Positions 35,510-39,477 of a stretch of DNA of 64,000 nucleotides are shown here, one piece after another. The notes under the pieces were generated by a model. It searched no databases. It was not told where the DNA came from and was given only the letters and a program-made list of their open reading frames with translations. Position 1 is the first letter of the stretch. Every line of letters starts with the position of its first letter. The position numbers were made by a program, and so were the translations under genes. The stretch is from Chloroflexota bacterium (GTDB lineage: Bacteria > Chloroflexota > Anaerolineae > Aggregatilineales > Aggregatilineaceae): contig JAAYCM010000109.1 of NCBI GenBank assembly GCA_012729765.1, forward strand, positions 1-64,000, in the 5' to 3' direction.

Positions 35510-36385
35510 CTACATCGTCTGCCCACCGCCGATGTGCAAAAGCTGCCCCGTCACCCAGCGCGCCTGAGTTGAGGCCAGGAACACGATCACGTCGGCTACG
35601 TCTTCGGGCTGGCCGATGCGTCCCAGCGGTGTGGTCGGAACCAGGACTGCTTCCAGCTCCGGCGTGATCCAGCCGGTCTGGATTGGGCCGGGCGACACGA
35701 TATTGACTGTGATGCCCGCCGGGCCAAGCTCGCGCGCGGCACTGCGGCTGTACGATTCGAGCGCGGCCTTGCTGGCCCCATATGACACCTCGCCGGGGAA
35801 GCAGTATGCTCCGCCGGTGCTCAGGTTGATGATCCGGCCCCAGGTCGCGCCGCGCTGGATGTGCCGCCGCGCGAATTCAGCCATCAGCAGGGCGGTGGCG
35901 CGGCTGTTGACCGAAAAGTGGCGGTCGTGGCTGCGCGCCGTGATGGTGGCGGTCGTCTCGCCCTGCCACAGTTCGGGCAGTTCGTTGACTTGCGCGCTCC
36001 CCGGCGGGATGAACGTGTCGGCTTCCCAGTCGGCGGCGTTGTTGACCAGCACCTCGACCGGGCCAAACGCCGCTTCGACCGCGTCGAACAGCCGGGGCAC
36101 GCTGGCCGGATCGCTCAGGTCGAACTCGCCCGCCTCGGCCTGCCCACCCTGATCACGGATGGCGGCCAGCACGGCGTCCGCACCTTCCGCGCGTTCGGCA
36201 GCGTACAGCTCGGCTCCCGGCGCTTGCGGCGACTCCGCCGTCGGATCGAGGTTCGCAGGCAGGCGGAAGTAGTGGACGAATACCCGCGCCCCCTCGGCGG
36301 CAAAGGCGCGCGCTGTGGCCGCCCCGATACCGTGATTGGCCCCCGTGACCAGTACCACCCGGTCCTGCAATCCCGTATCGATCAT
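35510..36385 (-). CDS. Short-chain dehydrogenase/reductase
   Basis: The classical SDR pattern is complete: TGANHGIGAATA cofactor motif, NNAADW, INLSTGGAY with the catalytic Ser, YGASK catalytic Tyr-Lys, and SPGPIQTG. The region after the second strand (YFRLPANLDPTAESPQAPGA) is longer than usual. At 291 residues it is slightly larger than typical. Substrate unknown. It lies 25 bp downstream of the ABC-F gene on the same strand, so it may be cotranscribed with it. Confidence 0.82.
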   Translation of the reverse strand: MIDTGLQDRVVLVTGANHGIGAATARAFAAEGARVFVHYFRLPANLDPTAESPQAPGAELYAAERAEGADAVLAAIRDQGGQAEAGEFDLSDPASVPRLFDAVEAAFGPVEVLVNNAADWEADTFIPPGSAQVNELPELWQGETTATITARSHDRHFSVNSRATALLMAEFARRHIQRGATWGRIINLSTGGAYCFPGEVSYGASKAALESYSRSAARELGPAGITVNIVSPGPIQTGWITPELEAVLVPTTPLGRIGQPEDVADVIVFLASTQARWVTGQLLHIGGGQTM

Positions 36386-36410: not shown

Positions 36411-38066
36411 TTAGGCCAGCGCCGGCTCGCGGACTTCTTCGGTCAGTGTGCCGTTCTCGATATACCAGACGGTCGTTGCGAAGCGGTCCACGAAGTAGCG
36501 ATCGTGCACCACCGCCAGCACGCTCCCCTGGAACGCGGCCAACGCCTGCTCGAACTGCTCGCGCGAGGGCACGTCCAGGTGATTGATCGGCTCGTCCAGC
36601 ACCAGCAGATTCGCGCCGCGCGCCACCAGCACGGCCAGCATCAGCCGGGCGCGCTCGCCGTAGCTCAGCCGCTCAACCGGCGTAAAAACCTCGTCGCCGG
36701 TGAACAGGAAGAAATGCAGAAACGCGCGCGCGTCGGTCTGGCCCATGGCCGCTTCGGATAGGATCACCTCAAGCGCGTTGCTGGCCGGATCGAGTATCTC
36801 CTGCTCCTGCGCCAGATAGCCGATCTTCACGCTGGCCCCGGTCCGCACACGTCCCGCCAGCGGTGGCAGCGCCCCGATGATCGTCTTCAGCAGCGTGCTT
36901 TTGCCGTGACCGTTCGGCCCCAGCACGGCGATCCGCTCCCGCGCGCGCAGCGCCAGGTTGAGATCGCGCAGCAGCGGCGCGGCGGGATCGTAGCCGATCG
37001 CCAGGTCCTCAAGCGCGATCACGTCCTGGCCGGTGGTAGGCAGATCGCCGAAGTCGAGCTTGAGATTCCAGACCGGCCTGGGCTTCTCGACCCGATCCTC
37101 GGCTTCCAGATAGCGCTTCAGCCGGGTTTCTTTAGACTTGGCGCGTTTGGCGACCTTTTTGGCATAGCGCCGCTGCCGGTCGTCATTGGTCGCGTTTTCC
37201 TTGCACACGGCGCGCGCCATCGTCTGGCGCATATCGGCTTGCAGACGCGCGATCTCGACCTGCTGATCGCGCCACTGTGCCCACTGTTTGTCCAGCTCAG
37301 AACGCACCGCCGCCGCATAGTCGCTGTAAGTGCCCTCGAACACGCGCGCGGTATGCGTCTGGTTGTCGATGGCGACCACGCGGTTGACCGTCTCGTCCAG
37401 AAACGTGCGGTCGTGCGAGACGATCAGCGCCCCGCCGGGGAAGTCTTGCAGCCACGCTTCCAGCCATTCGAGCGCGCTCACGTCAAGATGGTTGGTCGGC
37501 TCGTCCAGGATCAAAAGCTGCGGATGCCCGACCAGCAGCGCGGCCAGCCCCAGGCGCGTCTTCTGCCCGCCGGAGAGCGTGCCGACCGGGGTATCGAGCG
37601 GCACATCGTCCAGGCTCAGCCCGGCCAGCACGCGCTCGCCCTCACCGGATTCAACCACGCGGCTCAGGCTCTCAAGCCGTTCGAGCGCCCCGGCGTAATC
37701 GGCCAGCAGCCGCTCGATCTCGTGATCGGGCGTGCCGCTCATGGCGTCGGCCAGCCGCTCGACTTCGGCCTCAGCCTCGCGCAGGGCGGCGGCCTGCGGA
37801 AAGAGCACGTCGCGCAACGGTGTTTCGTCGGGCACATCCAGCCCTTGCGGCAGATAGCCCACGCGCAGATCGGCGGGCGCAAACTGCACCCCGCCGCCAT
37901 CGGCATCCAGCGCGCCGGTGATGATGCGCAACAGCGTGGTCTTGCCGGAGCCGTTGGGGCCGATCAGCCCGACGCGCTCGCCGGGATTGACGGTAAACGT
38001 GATGTTCTTGAGAACCGGCTCGTCCGCGCCGGGATAGCGTTTGGTGATGTTGGAGACGGTAAGCAT
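36411..38066 (-). CDS. ABC-F family ATPase (ribosome-associated)
   Basis: Two NBDs without membrane segments define ABC-F. NBD1 has GPNGSGKTTLL, LSGGQKTRLGLA and LILDEPTNHLD; NBD2 has GPNGHGKSTLL, LSYGERARLML and LVLDEPINHLD. A highly charged linker (about residues 250-320, with KKVAKRAKSKETRLKRY) inserts toward the ribosomal peptidyl-transferase centre in known members. ABC-F proteins rescue stalled ribosomes or protect against antibiotics. The long leader with a 9-codon ORF and a terminator, as in vmlR/msr-type genes, favours an antibiotic-response role (inference). An AAGGGA site precedes the ATG. Confidence 0.9.
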   Translation of the reverse strand: MLTVSNITKRYPGADEPVLKNITFTVNPGERVGLIGPNGSGKTTLLRIITGALDADGGGVQFAPADLRVGYLPQGLDVPDETPLRDVLFPQAAALREAEAEVERLADAMSGTPDHEIERLLADYAGALERLESLSRVVESGEGERVLAGLSLDDVPLDTPVGTLSGGQKTRLGLAALLVGHPQLLILDEPTNHLDVSALEWLEAWLQDFPGGALIVSHDRTFLDETVNRVVAIDNQTHTARVFEGTYSDYAAAVRSELDKQWAQWRDQQVEIARLQADMRQTMARAVCKENATNDDRQRRYAKKVAKRAKSKETRLKRYLEAEDRVEKPRPVWNLKLDFGDLPTTGQDVIALEDLAIGYDPAAPLLRDLNLALRARERIAVLGPNGHGKSTLLKTIIGALPPLAGRVRTGASVKIGYLAQEQEILDPASNALEVILSEAAMGQTDARAFLHFFLFTGDEVFTPVERLSYGERARLMLAVLVARGANLLVLDEPINHLDVPSREQFEQALAAFQGSVLAVVHDRYFVDRFATTVWYIENGTLTEEVREPALA

Positions 38067-38120
38067 GAGAGATGTCCCTTCTGTGCAGTCGGCTGCATCG
38101 TGAGTCGTCGGAAAACAAAG

Positions 38121-38148
38121 ACGCCGCCGGGCAGGCCCCGTGCGGCGT
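38121..38148 (-). terminator. Terminator/attenuator in the ABC-F leader
   Basis: On the minus strand ACGCCGC-A-CGGG-GCCTG-CCCG-GCGGCGT forms an 11-bp stem with one bulge, followed by CTTTGTTTTCC. It lies about 55 bases before the ABC-F start and downstream of a 9-codon ORF. The repeat GACGACTCACG flanks the hairpin on both sides. Confidence 0.65.
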
Positions 38149-38230
38149 GAGTCGTCTCATAGATGTGGCAGAATGCAGCGGTCAGTCCACGTGCGACAAG
38201 GTCACAGCACACAGCAAGCCCGGAAACGGA

Positions 38231-38260
38231 CTAGCGATTGTTGACCTCGTTGCGCACCAT
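38231..38260 (-). CDS. 9-residue leader peptide of the ABC-F gene (candidate)
   Basis: The minus strand reads ATG GTG CGC AAC GAG GTC AAC AAT CGC TAG (MVRNEVNNR), with AAAGGAT seven bases upstream of the ATG as a good ribosome-binding site. It lies about 65 bases downstream of the predicted transcription start, and about 80 bases before the attenuator hairpin. Ribosome stalling on such uORFs by antibiotics induces several ABC-F genes in Firmicutes. The coding status here is inferred from the site and context. Confidence 0.55.
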   Translation of the reverse strand: MVRNEVNNR

Positions 38261-38332
38261 AGAACATCCTTTGCTCAGGCCGATGAAAGACGGAATGAGA
38301 ACCGACTGGCGATTCCCGCCCCGACAGGACCT

Positions 38333-38362
38333 ATTGTAGCGGGATCAGGCGGGTGCTGTCAA
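38333..38362 (-). promoter_or_regulatory. Promoter of the ABC-F leader
   Basis: On the minus strand TTGACA (38362-38357) and TACAAT (38338-38333) are separated by 18 bp. Transcription would start near 38326, giving a leader of about 260 nt before the ABC-F start codon. Confidence 0.75.
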
Positions 38363-38462
38363 GGCGGGGTGAGGCACGGTGATCGGATCGTGTGGCGCGC
38401 ATGTAGAATAATTGTGCTAGAATCAACCTATCGAACAGCGGTTCTAGCGCTGGCAGACCGGC

Positions 38463-38957
38463 ATGGACGATCACCATTCATACAGTTTTAACGGTCAGTT
38501 ACAGAGCGGCGAGCAGGGTGAAGTATTTCTGGACGAGTATTTTGCGCGCTGGTTCATCCTCGAGCCGGCCAGCCCGGCAGAACAGCGCCAGGGAATCGAC
38601 CGCTTTTTTACGACGCGCAACCGCAAGCGCCGCTTTGCCGTCGAATATAAAACCGACAATGTCGCGGCCCGCACCGGCAACGCCTTCATCGAGACGATCT
38701 CGGTAGATGTGATCAACAAGCCCGGCTGGGCCTATACCTCGCAGGCCGAATACCTGCTCTACTACGTGCCGGGCAAAGCCGTCGTCTACATGATGCCGAT
38801 GGCCGCCATCCGCCGCTGCCTGGCGCTCTGGCTGGAGCATTTCCCCCACCGCCAGATTCCCAACAACGGCTACAACTCCTATGGGCTGCTGGTTCCGCTG
38901 GGCGAGTTCGAGCGCTATGCCGAAGGCGTGTTCATGACCAACAGCAGCCCGGTCTGA
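38463..38957 (+). CDS. Hypothetical protein, possible PD-(D/E)XK nuclease fold
   Basis: This 164-residue protein has QGIDRFF followed 18 residues later by VEYKTD, matching the D-(x)n-E-x-K pattern of PD-(D/E)XK nucleases, and then NAFIETISVD, as seen in several endonuclease-like hypothetical proteins. The C-terminal half (AEYLLYYVPGKAVVYMMP) is consistent with the beta strands of that fold. Substrate and role are unknown. It stands alone, with a short gap after the ABC-F leader promoter and 520 bp of noncoding DNA behind it. Confidence 0.5.
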   Translation: MDDHHSYSFNGQLQSGEQGEVFLDEYFARWFILEPASPAEQRQGIDRFFTTRNRKRRFAVEYKTDNVAARTGNAFIETISVDVINKPGWAYTSQAEYLLYYVPGKAVVYMMPMAAIRRCLALWLEHFPHRQIPNNGYNSYGLLVPLGEFERYAEGVFMTNSSPV

Positions 38958-39477
38958 CACTCATTCCAGGTCCTCAGTCTTCGAGCGTTCTCCGTGCGGC
39001 GGCCCATTTTTCCCCTCAAAATAACCGCTTTCAAACTTTTCAATGGCTCAATAGCGGTAGTTAAAGTGTCCACTTCTGTCCTAGCAGAAGATAAGCCCCC
39101 TGGCTCATTACGAGTGCTGTCTACGCCCTCATCATAATCCCATGAATTCAGAATGCTTAGCTTTCCCCTTGGACCAGAAGCGAGGAAGAAAATTCGGGGC
39201 ACTGTCCTCTTGTCTTAACAGGCGGAATGGACTGTTATGAGGTGCGGCTAGACCAGATATCCAAGCGTTGAGCGGGACCGACTCTTTCTCACACAAACTT
39301 CGCCCAGAGCAGCCACCGCCACCGCCTTTTTCACCCGATTTCACACCCAACGATCACGCTGCCGCAGCGTGTATCCCATCCCGCAAGCCAGCGGATTCCA
39401 CGCTGGCTGATGCTGGATCGCTGCTGGTGATCGGGCGCAGCGCGGTAACCGGCCCGTTGGCGGAAGGACAGACGACA
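38958..39477. other. 520-bp region without a supported gene, lower GC
   Basis: Only short unconvincing frames occur here. The first 300 bases are clearly less GC-rich than the neighbours (for example AAAATAACCGCTTTCAAAC). With the decayed glycosyltransferase genes that follow, it looks like the remains of a rearranged or acquired segment. No terminal repeats or transposase remnants were seen. Confidence 0.5.

Follow-up and report, generated by a model that had tools for sequence, protein, structure and literature searches.

A putative uORF-dependent transcription attenuator in front of an ABC-F gene of Chloroflexota

In Bacillus subtilis, expression of vmlR is described as depending on an antibiotic that stalls the ribosome on a short upstream ORF (uORF) located inside an anti-antiterminator, which frees an antiterminator; in the accessible part of that report the uORF has three codons (MIN) and several other uORF sequences are tolerated (PMC9226507). 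For Streptomyces, the available text of a second paper attributes ribosome arrest at the start codons of such uORFs to lincosamides, streptogramins A and pleuromutilins (PMC12421871), and the Streptomyces lmrC leader (PMC8546547, likewise accessible in part) and msrD are further cases. The locus presented here lies on the minus strand of a 64-kb window (the whole stretch of DNA that was analysed), between 38362 and 38067, and its features are collected in Table 1. An earlier note made from the sequence alone had proposed a promoter and, behind it, some 260 nt of leader with a ribosome-binding site and an ATG for the peptide MVRNEVNNR, a terminator hairpin with a T-rich tail, the start of an ABC-F gene, and two repeats around the terminator. 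The promoter is confirmed by the sequence, all the other elements could be located, and the repeats are two exact copies of GACGACTCACG, of which there is no other in the window. The note had also likened this layout to that of the antibiotic-induced ABC-F and erm genes of Firmicutes. The likeness stands for the attenuation layout of the vmlR and cplR type and falls for erm, whose control is usually translational, as a close precedent; moreover the leader belongs to Chloroflexota, not to Firmicutes, because eight named relatives of the ABC-F protein, 63-79% identical to it (L019-L026), come from records labelled as Anaerolineae or Chloroflexi MAGs.

Table 1. Positions of the features of the leader and of the genes behind it, in window coordinates
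Feature	Position	Strand	Detail or basis
Sigma-70-type promoter TTGACA-18-TACAAT	38333-38362	-	TTGACA 38362-38357, 18-nt spacer, TACAAT 38338-38333
5' hairpin P1	38289-38325	-	predicted fold and covariation; near the inferred transcription start
uORF Shine-Dalgarno (SD) AAAGGATG	38265-38272	-	sequence
uORF MVRNEVNNR, nine codons and TAG	38231-38260	-	ATG GTG CGC AAC GAG GTC AAC AAT CGC TAG
Anti-antiterminator 5' arm (uORF codons 2-7)	38242-38257	-	predicted fold, cognate test, compensatory changes in families f2/f4
Anti-antiterminator 3' arm	38191-38204	-	predicted fold and covariation; overlaps the antiterminator
Antiterminator 5' strand (predicted)	38183-38213	-	38213-38202 with 38150-38139; 38197-38183 with 38165-38151
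Antiterminator 3' strand (predicted)	38139-38165	-	38148-38139 doubles as terminator 5' arm
GACGACTCACG, copy 1	38146-38156	-	inside the antiterminator 3' strand
Intrinsic terminator	38113-38148	-	hairpin 38148-38121 and T-rich tail CTTTGTTTT
GACGACTCACG, copy 2	38099-38109	-	exact copy of 38156-38146
ABC-F ATPase, 551 aa, ribosomal-protection-like	36411-38066	-	NCBIfam NF000355, 412.5 bits (cut-off 380)
Short-chain dehydrogenase (SDR)	35510-36385	-	Pfam adh_short_C2; 25 nt past the ABC-F stop

The promoter agrees with the consensus at 11 of 12 positions and was the sole promoter-like match returned by a simple scan of the 37500-39000 region (0.4 on average in shuffled sequences); promoter hexamers also stand 5' of the uORF in relatives, among the leaders listed. 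Transcription would start around 38326, which gives a leader of about 260 nt. The terminator hairpin (-21.6 kcal/mol) lies 54 nt 5' of the ABC-F ATG, which has its own SD. A simple terminator scan called none at the leader, presumably because the stem carries a bulge. When both strands of the window were scanned for an SD followed by a uORF of 7-10 codons and by a terminator 60-135 nt 3' of it, a rule fixed after the leader had been seen, the arrangement was found only at the MVRNEVNNR uORF (listed twice, since its second codon, GTG, is a possible start as well). There was no Rfam match in the leader, either at the gathering score or at E-values up to 1, and the leader gives a single match in its own 4.7-Mb assembly, i.e. 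it is not repeated elsewhere there. No role was found for the second copy of GACGACTCACG, which, judged by eye, is not kept in all relatives.

The ABC-F protein has EttA, YheS, ExpZ and PoxtA as best matches among solved structures, and it scores below the cut-offs of every named resistance (ARE) family shown. Its match to NF000355 is weak evidence for resistance, and no proof of function, because a Uup-type paralogue (L016) also passes this model with 445.7 bits. Plasmid-borne relatives annotated as ribosomal-protection-like ABC-F proteins are up to about 35% identical to it, and Chloroflexi members are listed within the ARE4a subfamily in the accessible part of a survey (PMC6723617). The SDR gene, which probably shares the ABC-F transcript, follows ABC-F in L008, L010 and L022 (= L048) as well, and may be part of an induced operon. 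On the plus strand, a gene for a 164-aa protein (38463-38957) diverges from the ABC-F promoter; it has no Pfam or NCBIfam match, and a search of the other relatives did not show it next to their ABC-F genes.

We propose, with a probability of about 0.8, that the leader is a three-state, translation-dependent transcription attenuator of the vmlR kind. Healthy ribosomes would translate the nine-codon uORF and be quickly released; codons 2-7, once freed, would pair with the segment just 3' of the uORF to form the anti-antiterminator and would leave the 5' arm of the terminator free, so that the terminator would form near 38121 and ABC-F would not be transcribed. A drug that the ABC-F protein can remove would halt the ribosome on the uORF, and the halted ribosome would cover the 5' arm of the uORF stem. 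The released 38213-38183 segment would then pair with 38165-38139, the 5' arm of the terminator included, and RNA polymerase would read through into ABC-F and probably also into the SDR gene. Three steps of this scheme are inferred: real stalling of ribosomes on the uORF; an antibiotic as the trigger, the likeliest being drugs active at the start or in early elongation, such as lincosamides, pleuromutilins or streptogramins A; and protection of the ribosome by the induced ABC-F protein.

ABC-F orthologues (E ≤ 1e-150) were found in 37 of the 154 genomes of the order, and 36 of them (all but L011) have upstream sequence. The layout searched for, by a rule fixed after looking at leaders, was an SD, a uORF of 4-10 codons and a terminator 40-200 nt further on: it was found for 32 of the 36 orthologues, versus 0-1 of 36 in each of six dinucleotide-shuffle sets. 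For orthologues from other orders of the class the figures were 21 of 80 versus 0-2 of 80 in the shuffles; the upstream sequences of this set come from part of the 110 class genomes that match ABC-F, and one of the 80, L084, is without true upstream sequence as its gene starts at a contig end. The layout was found in none of four Uup-type ABC-F paralogues from the family. Among the orthologues of the order the sequence diverges while the layout stays. Thirty of the 36 leaders, this one included, were picked for having a readable uORF of 7-10 codons (L064-L069 were left out; the automatic layout scan accepts L065 and L068 too). In these 30 leaders the uORF is at the same position, and every one has a terminator hairpin followed by a T-rich tail. 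The peptides vary (MTRTEVNH, MVTRFANS, MTRLTNR, MLVRIASH, MIRVTAR, etc.), their length and place being kept. The P1 hairpin covaries in 23 leaders: none of 500 shuffles reaches its covariation score, and slid versions score lower.

Several side observations came from the same leaders and from others in the class. In all 30 leaders the uORF ends with TAA or TAG and in no case with TGA, the stop of 24 out of 50 long window ORFs; this bias is not a formal test because the 30 leaders are related. Elsewhere in the class, six leaders of family f34 (L127, L135, L140, L142, L149 and L151) have very short uORFs before ABC-F genes (MTDNL, MTDIL, MTDSK, MTDSN, MTDSM) and a different terminator, GCCGAGG...CCTCGGT. 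Another leader type, seen in L090, L092, L101, L113, L120 and L126, has uORFs such as MTEKIAA and MTDTFAA, followed by a stem GGUC..CCCGC / GCGGGACC in which compensatory changes are apparent by eye.

In the predicted fold of the window, the uORF stem is made of two helices, 38257-38253 paired with 38195-38191 (5 bp) and 38250-38242 paired with 38204-38196 (9 bp). When each uORF of the 30 leaders was paired with the segment downstream of it and with the corresponding segments from other species, its own partner gave the better pairing; the centred difference of -3.56 kcal/mol was reached in 0 of 5000 permutations. The same comparison of cognate and non-cognate stems within families gave 134/5000 for f1, 17/5000 for f6 and 210/5000 for f3; it was not significant within f2 alone (1672/5000). 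Among seven f2 and f4 leaders, 8 of the 19 stem pairs are changed on both sides, and the f2/f4 covariation score (0.286) was reached by 0 of 500 shuffles, with slid versions at 0.058-0.165. A MAFFT alignment of the f1 leaders (A1) misplaces the uORF stem, and no pairs were counted on it. Covariation supports the predicted formation of an anti-antiterminator by the uORF codons and the segment just 3' of them.

The nascent RNA was then folded up to the 5' arm of the terminator, with or without a ribosome footprint. With no ribosome, the window RNA folds as the uORF stem; with a ribosome at the start codon or at codon 8, the fold is that of the two antiterminator helices of Table 1, in which the released arm is taken up together with the 5' arm of the terminator. 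For the window, antiterminator pairing is 0.03 when the RNA is free; a ribosome placed at the start codon lifts it to 0.72, footprints over codons 1-9 give 0.72-0.84, and past the uORF it is back to 0.03. Averaged over the 30 leaders, pairing is 0.21 for free RNA, peaks with the P site on the first codons (0.57 at the start codon) and lies at 0.15-0.22 once the uORF has been passed. The rise exceeds 0.1 in 22 of 30 leaders versus 31 of 90 shuffled spacers (Mann-Whitney p 9e-5), masking of the uORF also lifting pairing in shuffled spacers, by 0.11 on average. The other eight leaders gained no more than 0.1 from the footprint, and one of these lost more than 0.1. The cognate tests on the antiterminator were not significant (1332/5000 for the 30 leaders, 830/5000 for 16 class leaders), and on alignment A3 there were 0 compensatory pairs, with 89.7% of the cells paired: the antiterminator is not proven by covariation because its helix is nearly invariant. 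An antiterminator overlapping both other structures is therefore a prediction, drawn from the folding and from the logic of the arrangement. The earlier note had called for two checks, one on the conservation of uORF and terminator in relatives, the other on an antiterminator revealed by RNA folding. Both came out in its favour: the first by the layout and terminator counts given above, the second, in simulation, by a predicted structure that is in competition with the terminator and gains when a ribosome sits on the uORF.

The position of the stalled ribosome is where a first alternative departs from our reading. The attenuator would be the same, and the stall would depend on the nascent peptide and occur at the end of the uORF, which would make it a selective sensor of, for instance, phenicols or oxazolidinones; these drugs prefer Ala, Ser or Thr at the penultimate position. 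The uORF ends do share a pattern, [V/I/L]-[A/S/T]-N-[R/S/H]-stop: in 25 peptides (the 30 after removal of five near-duplicates), A, S or T is at -3 in 18, N at -2 in 13, and R, H or S at -1 in 20, each position being reached in 0 of 10000 within-peptide shuffles. In the window, placing the P site at codon 8 likewise switches the fold. However, the window peptide has N at -3 instead of A, S or T, the simulated switch is strongest at the start codon across the 30 leaders, and the pattern may be an RNA constraint because the 3' end of the uORF and its stop lie in RNA pairings in several leaders, among those listed. We consider this variant rather unlikely. Stalling at or near the start codon accommodates both the variable uORFs and the start-codon peak, since LSAP drugs (lincosamides, streptogramins A and pleuromutilins) are described as stalling ribosomes at start codons in Streptomyces and vmlR as tolerating several uORFs.

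A covariance model of P1, SD and uORF built from 23 leaders (R1) matches at 34 places in 33 of the 154 genomes of the order, i.e. the 23 source leaders and 11 others. Three matches (L169, L170 and L172) lie inside coding DNA and were judged false. Among the 31 places outside coding DNA, 29 precede ABC-F genes. Of the 11 others, one (L165) is at an ABC-F orthologue at a contig end, and five are before other ABC-F paralogues (L163, L164, L166, L167 and L171); among NCBIfam models, TlrC/CarA/OleB ranks first or second for all five, below its cut-off. The uORFs of L164, L166 and L171 end in NNR, as in the window. For L167 (genome G071), no terminator was found after the uORF and the SD of the paralogue may lie in a hairpin, which suggests translational rather than transcriptional control.

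L173 stands before a GNAT acetyltransferase gene. A homologue of this GNAT is present in 26 of the 154 genomes; out of 12 upstream regions examined, leaders were found in L176 (= L173), which R1 matches, and by eye in L177, which it does not. The L177 GNAT, from another genome of the family (G008), is 58% identical and has its own uORF and terminator. The uORFs are MTRTDIATR for L173/L174 (G009, contig 156) and MGSKVTTP for L177, both with a terminator, and these GNATs are candidates for a drug-induced, perhaps drug-modifying enzyme. In L168 (G046), an R1-type leader with the uORF MTLTNRA and a terminator precedes the gene of a PNPOx-like flavin protein; it may be the relic of a lost ABC-F. 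Nine such places were folded, L167 without a terminator among them; simulated antiterminator pairing gained more than 0.1 in five (L164, L165, L166, L171 and L177) and went from 0.31 to 0.38 for L168, from 0.43 to 0.43 for L173 and from 0.00 to 0.00 for L163. A search of 396 class genomes with R1 matched nine, all from the same order, and the 5'-hairpin form consequently appears order-specific. As a tentative extension, the leader could be a portable drug-sensing module, made of P1, a three-state attenuator and a uORF of 7-10 codons whose C-terminal [A/S/T]-N-[R/S/H] would act as the sensor, that has become attached to several ABC-F lineages and to GNAT; if so, it could be used to find unrecognised resistance genes.

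The L167 case bears on another alternative, in which control would be mainly translational, the switch opening the ABC-F ribosome-binding site and the hairpin being an inefficient terminator. Both layers are combined in vmlR and cplR, according to the accessible parts of the two reports (PMC9226507, PMC10201436), and a GGCGGC/GCCGCC pairing occurs at the ABC-F start in some f2 leaders among those listed. The constant presence of a hairpin with a T-rich tail in the 30 leaders and, in the window, its distance from the ABC-F start speak against this view, which we regard as improbable. Our preferred reading, transcription attenuation, also assumes that a drug is what is sensed. A leader responding to the general state of translation, i.e. 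to amino-acid starvation or slow ribosomes, would show the same predicted fold change, as any slow ribosome on the uORF would bring it about; yet the uORF residues vary and contain no run of a single amino acid, unlike those of biosynthetic leaders, and the leader stands before ABC-F genes in most cases, so that we hold such general sensing to be quite improbable. That a chance ORF lies beside an ordinary upstream terminator is barely credible: nine codons are few and terminators are common, but the arrangement is unique in the window, and conservation and covariation in the comparison contradict it.

In the literature searched, which lacks most subscription papers and preprints, we came across no leader of this sort described for Chloroflexota. 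If our reading is correct, antibiotic-inducible control of ABC-F genes extends to the Anaerolineae, which suggests that ribosome-targeting drugs are encountered and sensed by this group of environmental bacteria, most of them uncultured. R1 provides a sequence model with which other drug-induced genes can be sought in the order; it already points to the ABC-F paralogues and the GNAT.

By analogy, the closest known system is vmlR of B. subtilis. As far as the available part of its description goes (PMC9226507), the two have in common an ABC-F gene, a short uORF within an anti-antiterminator, a terminator before the gene and a variable uORF sequence, as well as the freeing of an antiterminator by a stall, which is only predicted for the Chloroflexota leader. 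They differ in the length of the uORF, three codons in vmlR (PMC9226507) versus 7-10 here, where the uORF sequence itself is the stem arm. The Chloroflexota leader has the P1 hairpin in addition, and its host belongs to the Chloroflexota and not to the Bacilli. Clostridioides difficile cplR, lsaA and Listeria lmo0919 are also intrinsic ABC-F genes under uORF-controlled attenuation; their uORFs have three to four codons where these are given in the accessible text (MRI, MAGN), and translational attenuation is a main layer for cplR (PMC10201436). Streptomyces tiaA and are5sc, likened here by their description in the available part of the source, have a uORF (nine codons for tiaAL, MVGDDDISG) and a predicted terminator/antiterminator; they differ in belonging to Actinobacteria and to ABC-F subfamily ARE5 (PMC12421871). 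The mechanism proposed here is thus of a known kind, in a new lineage.
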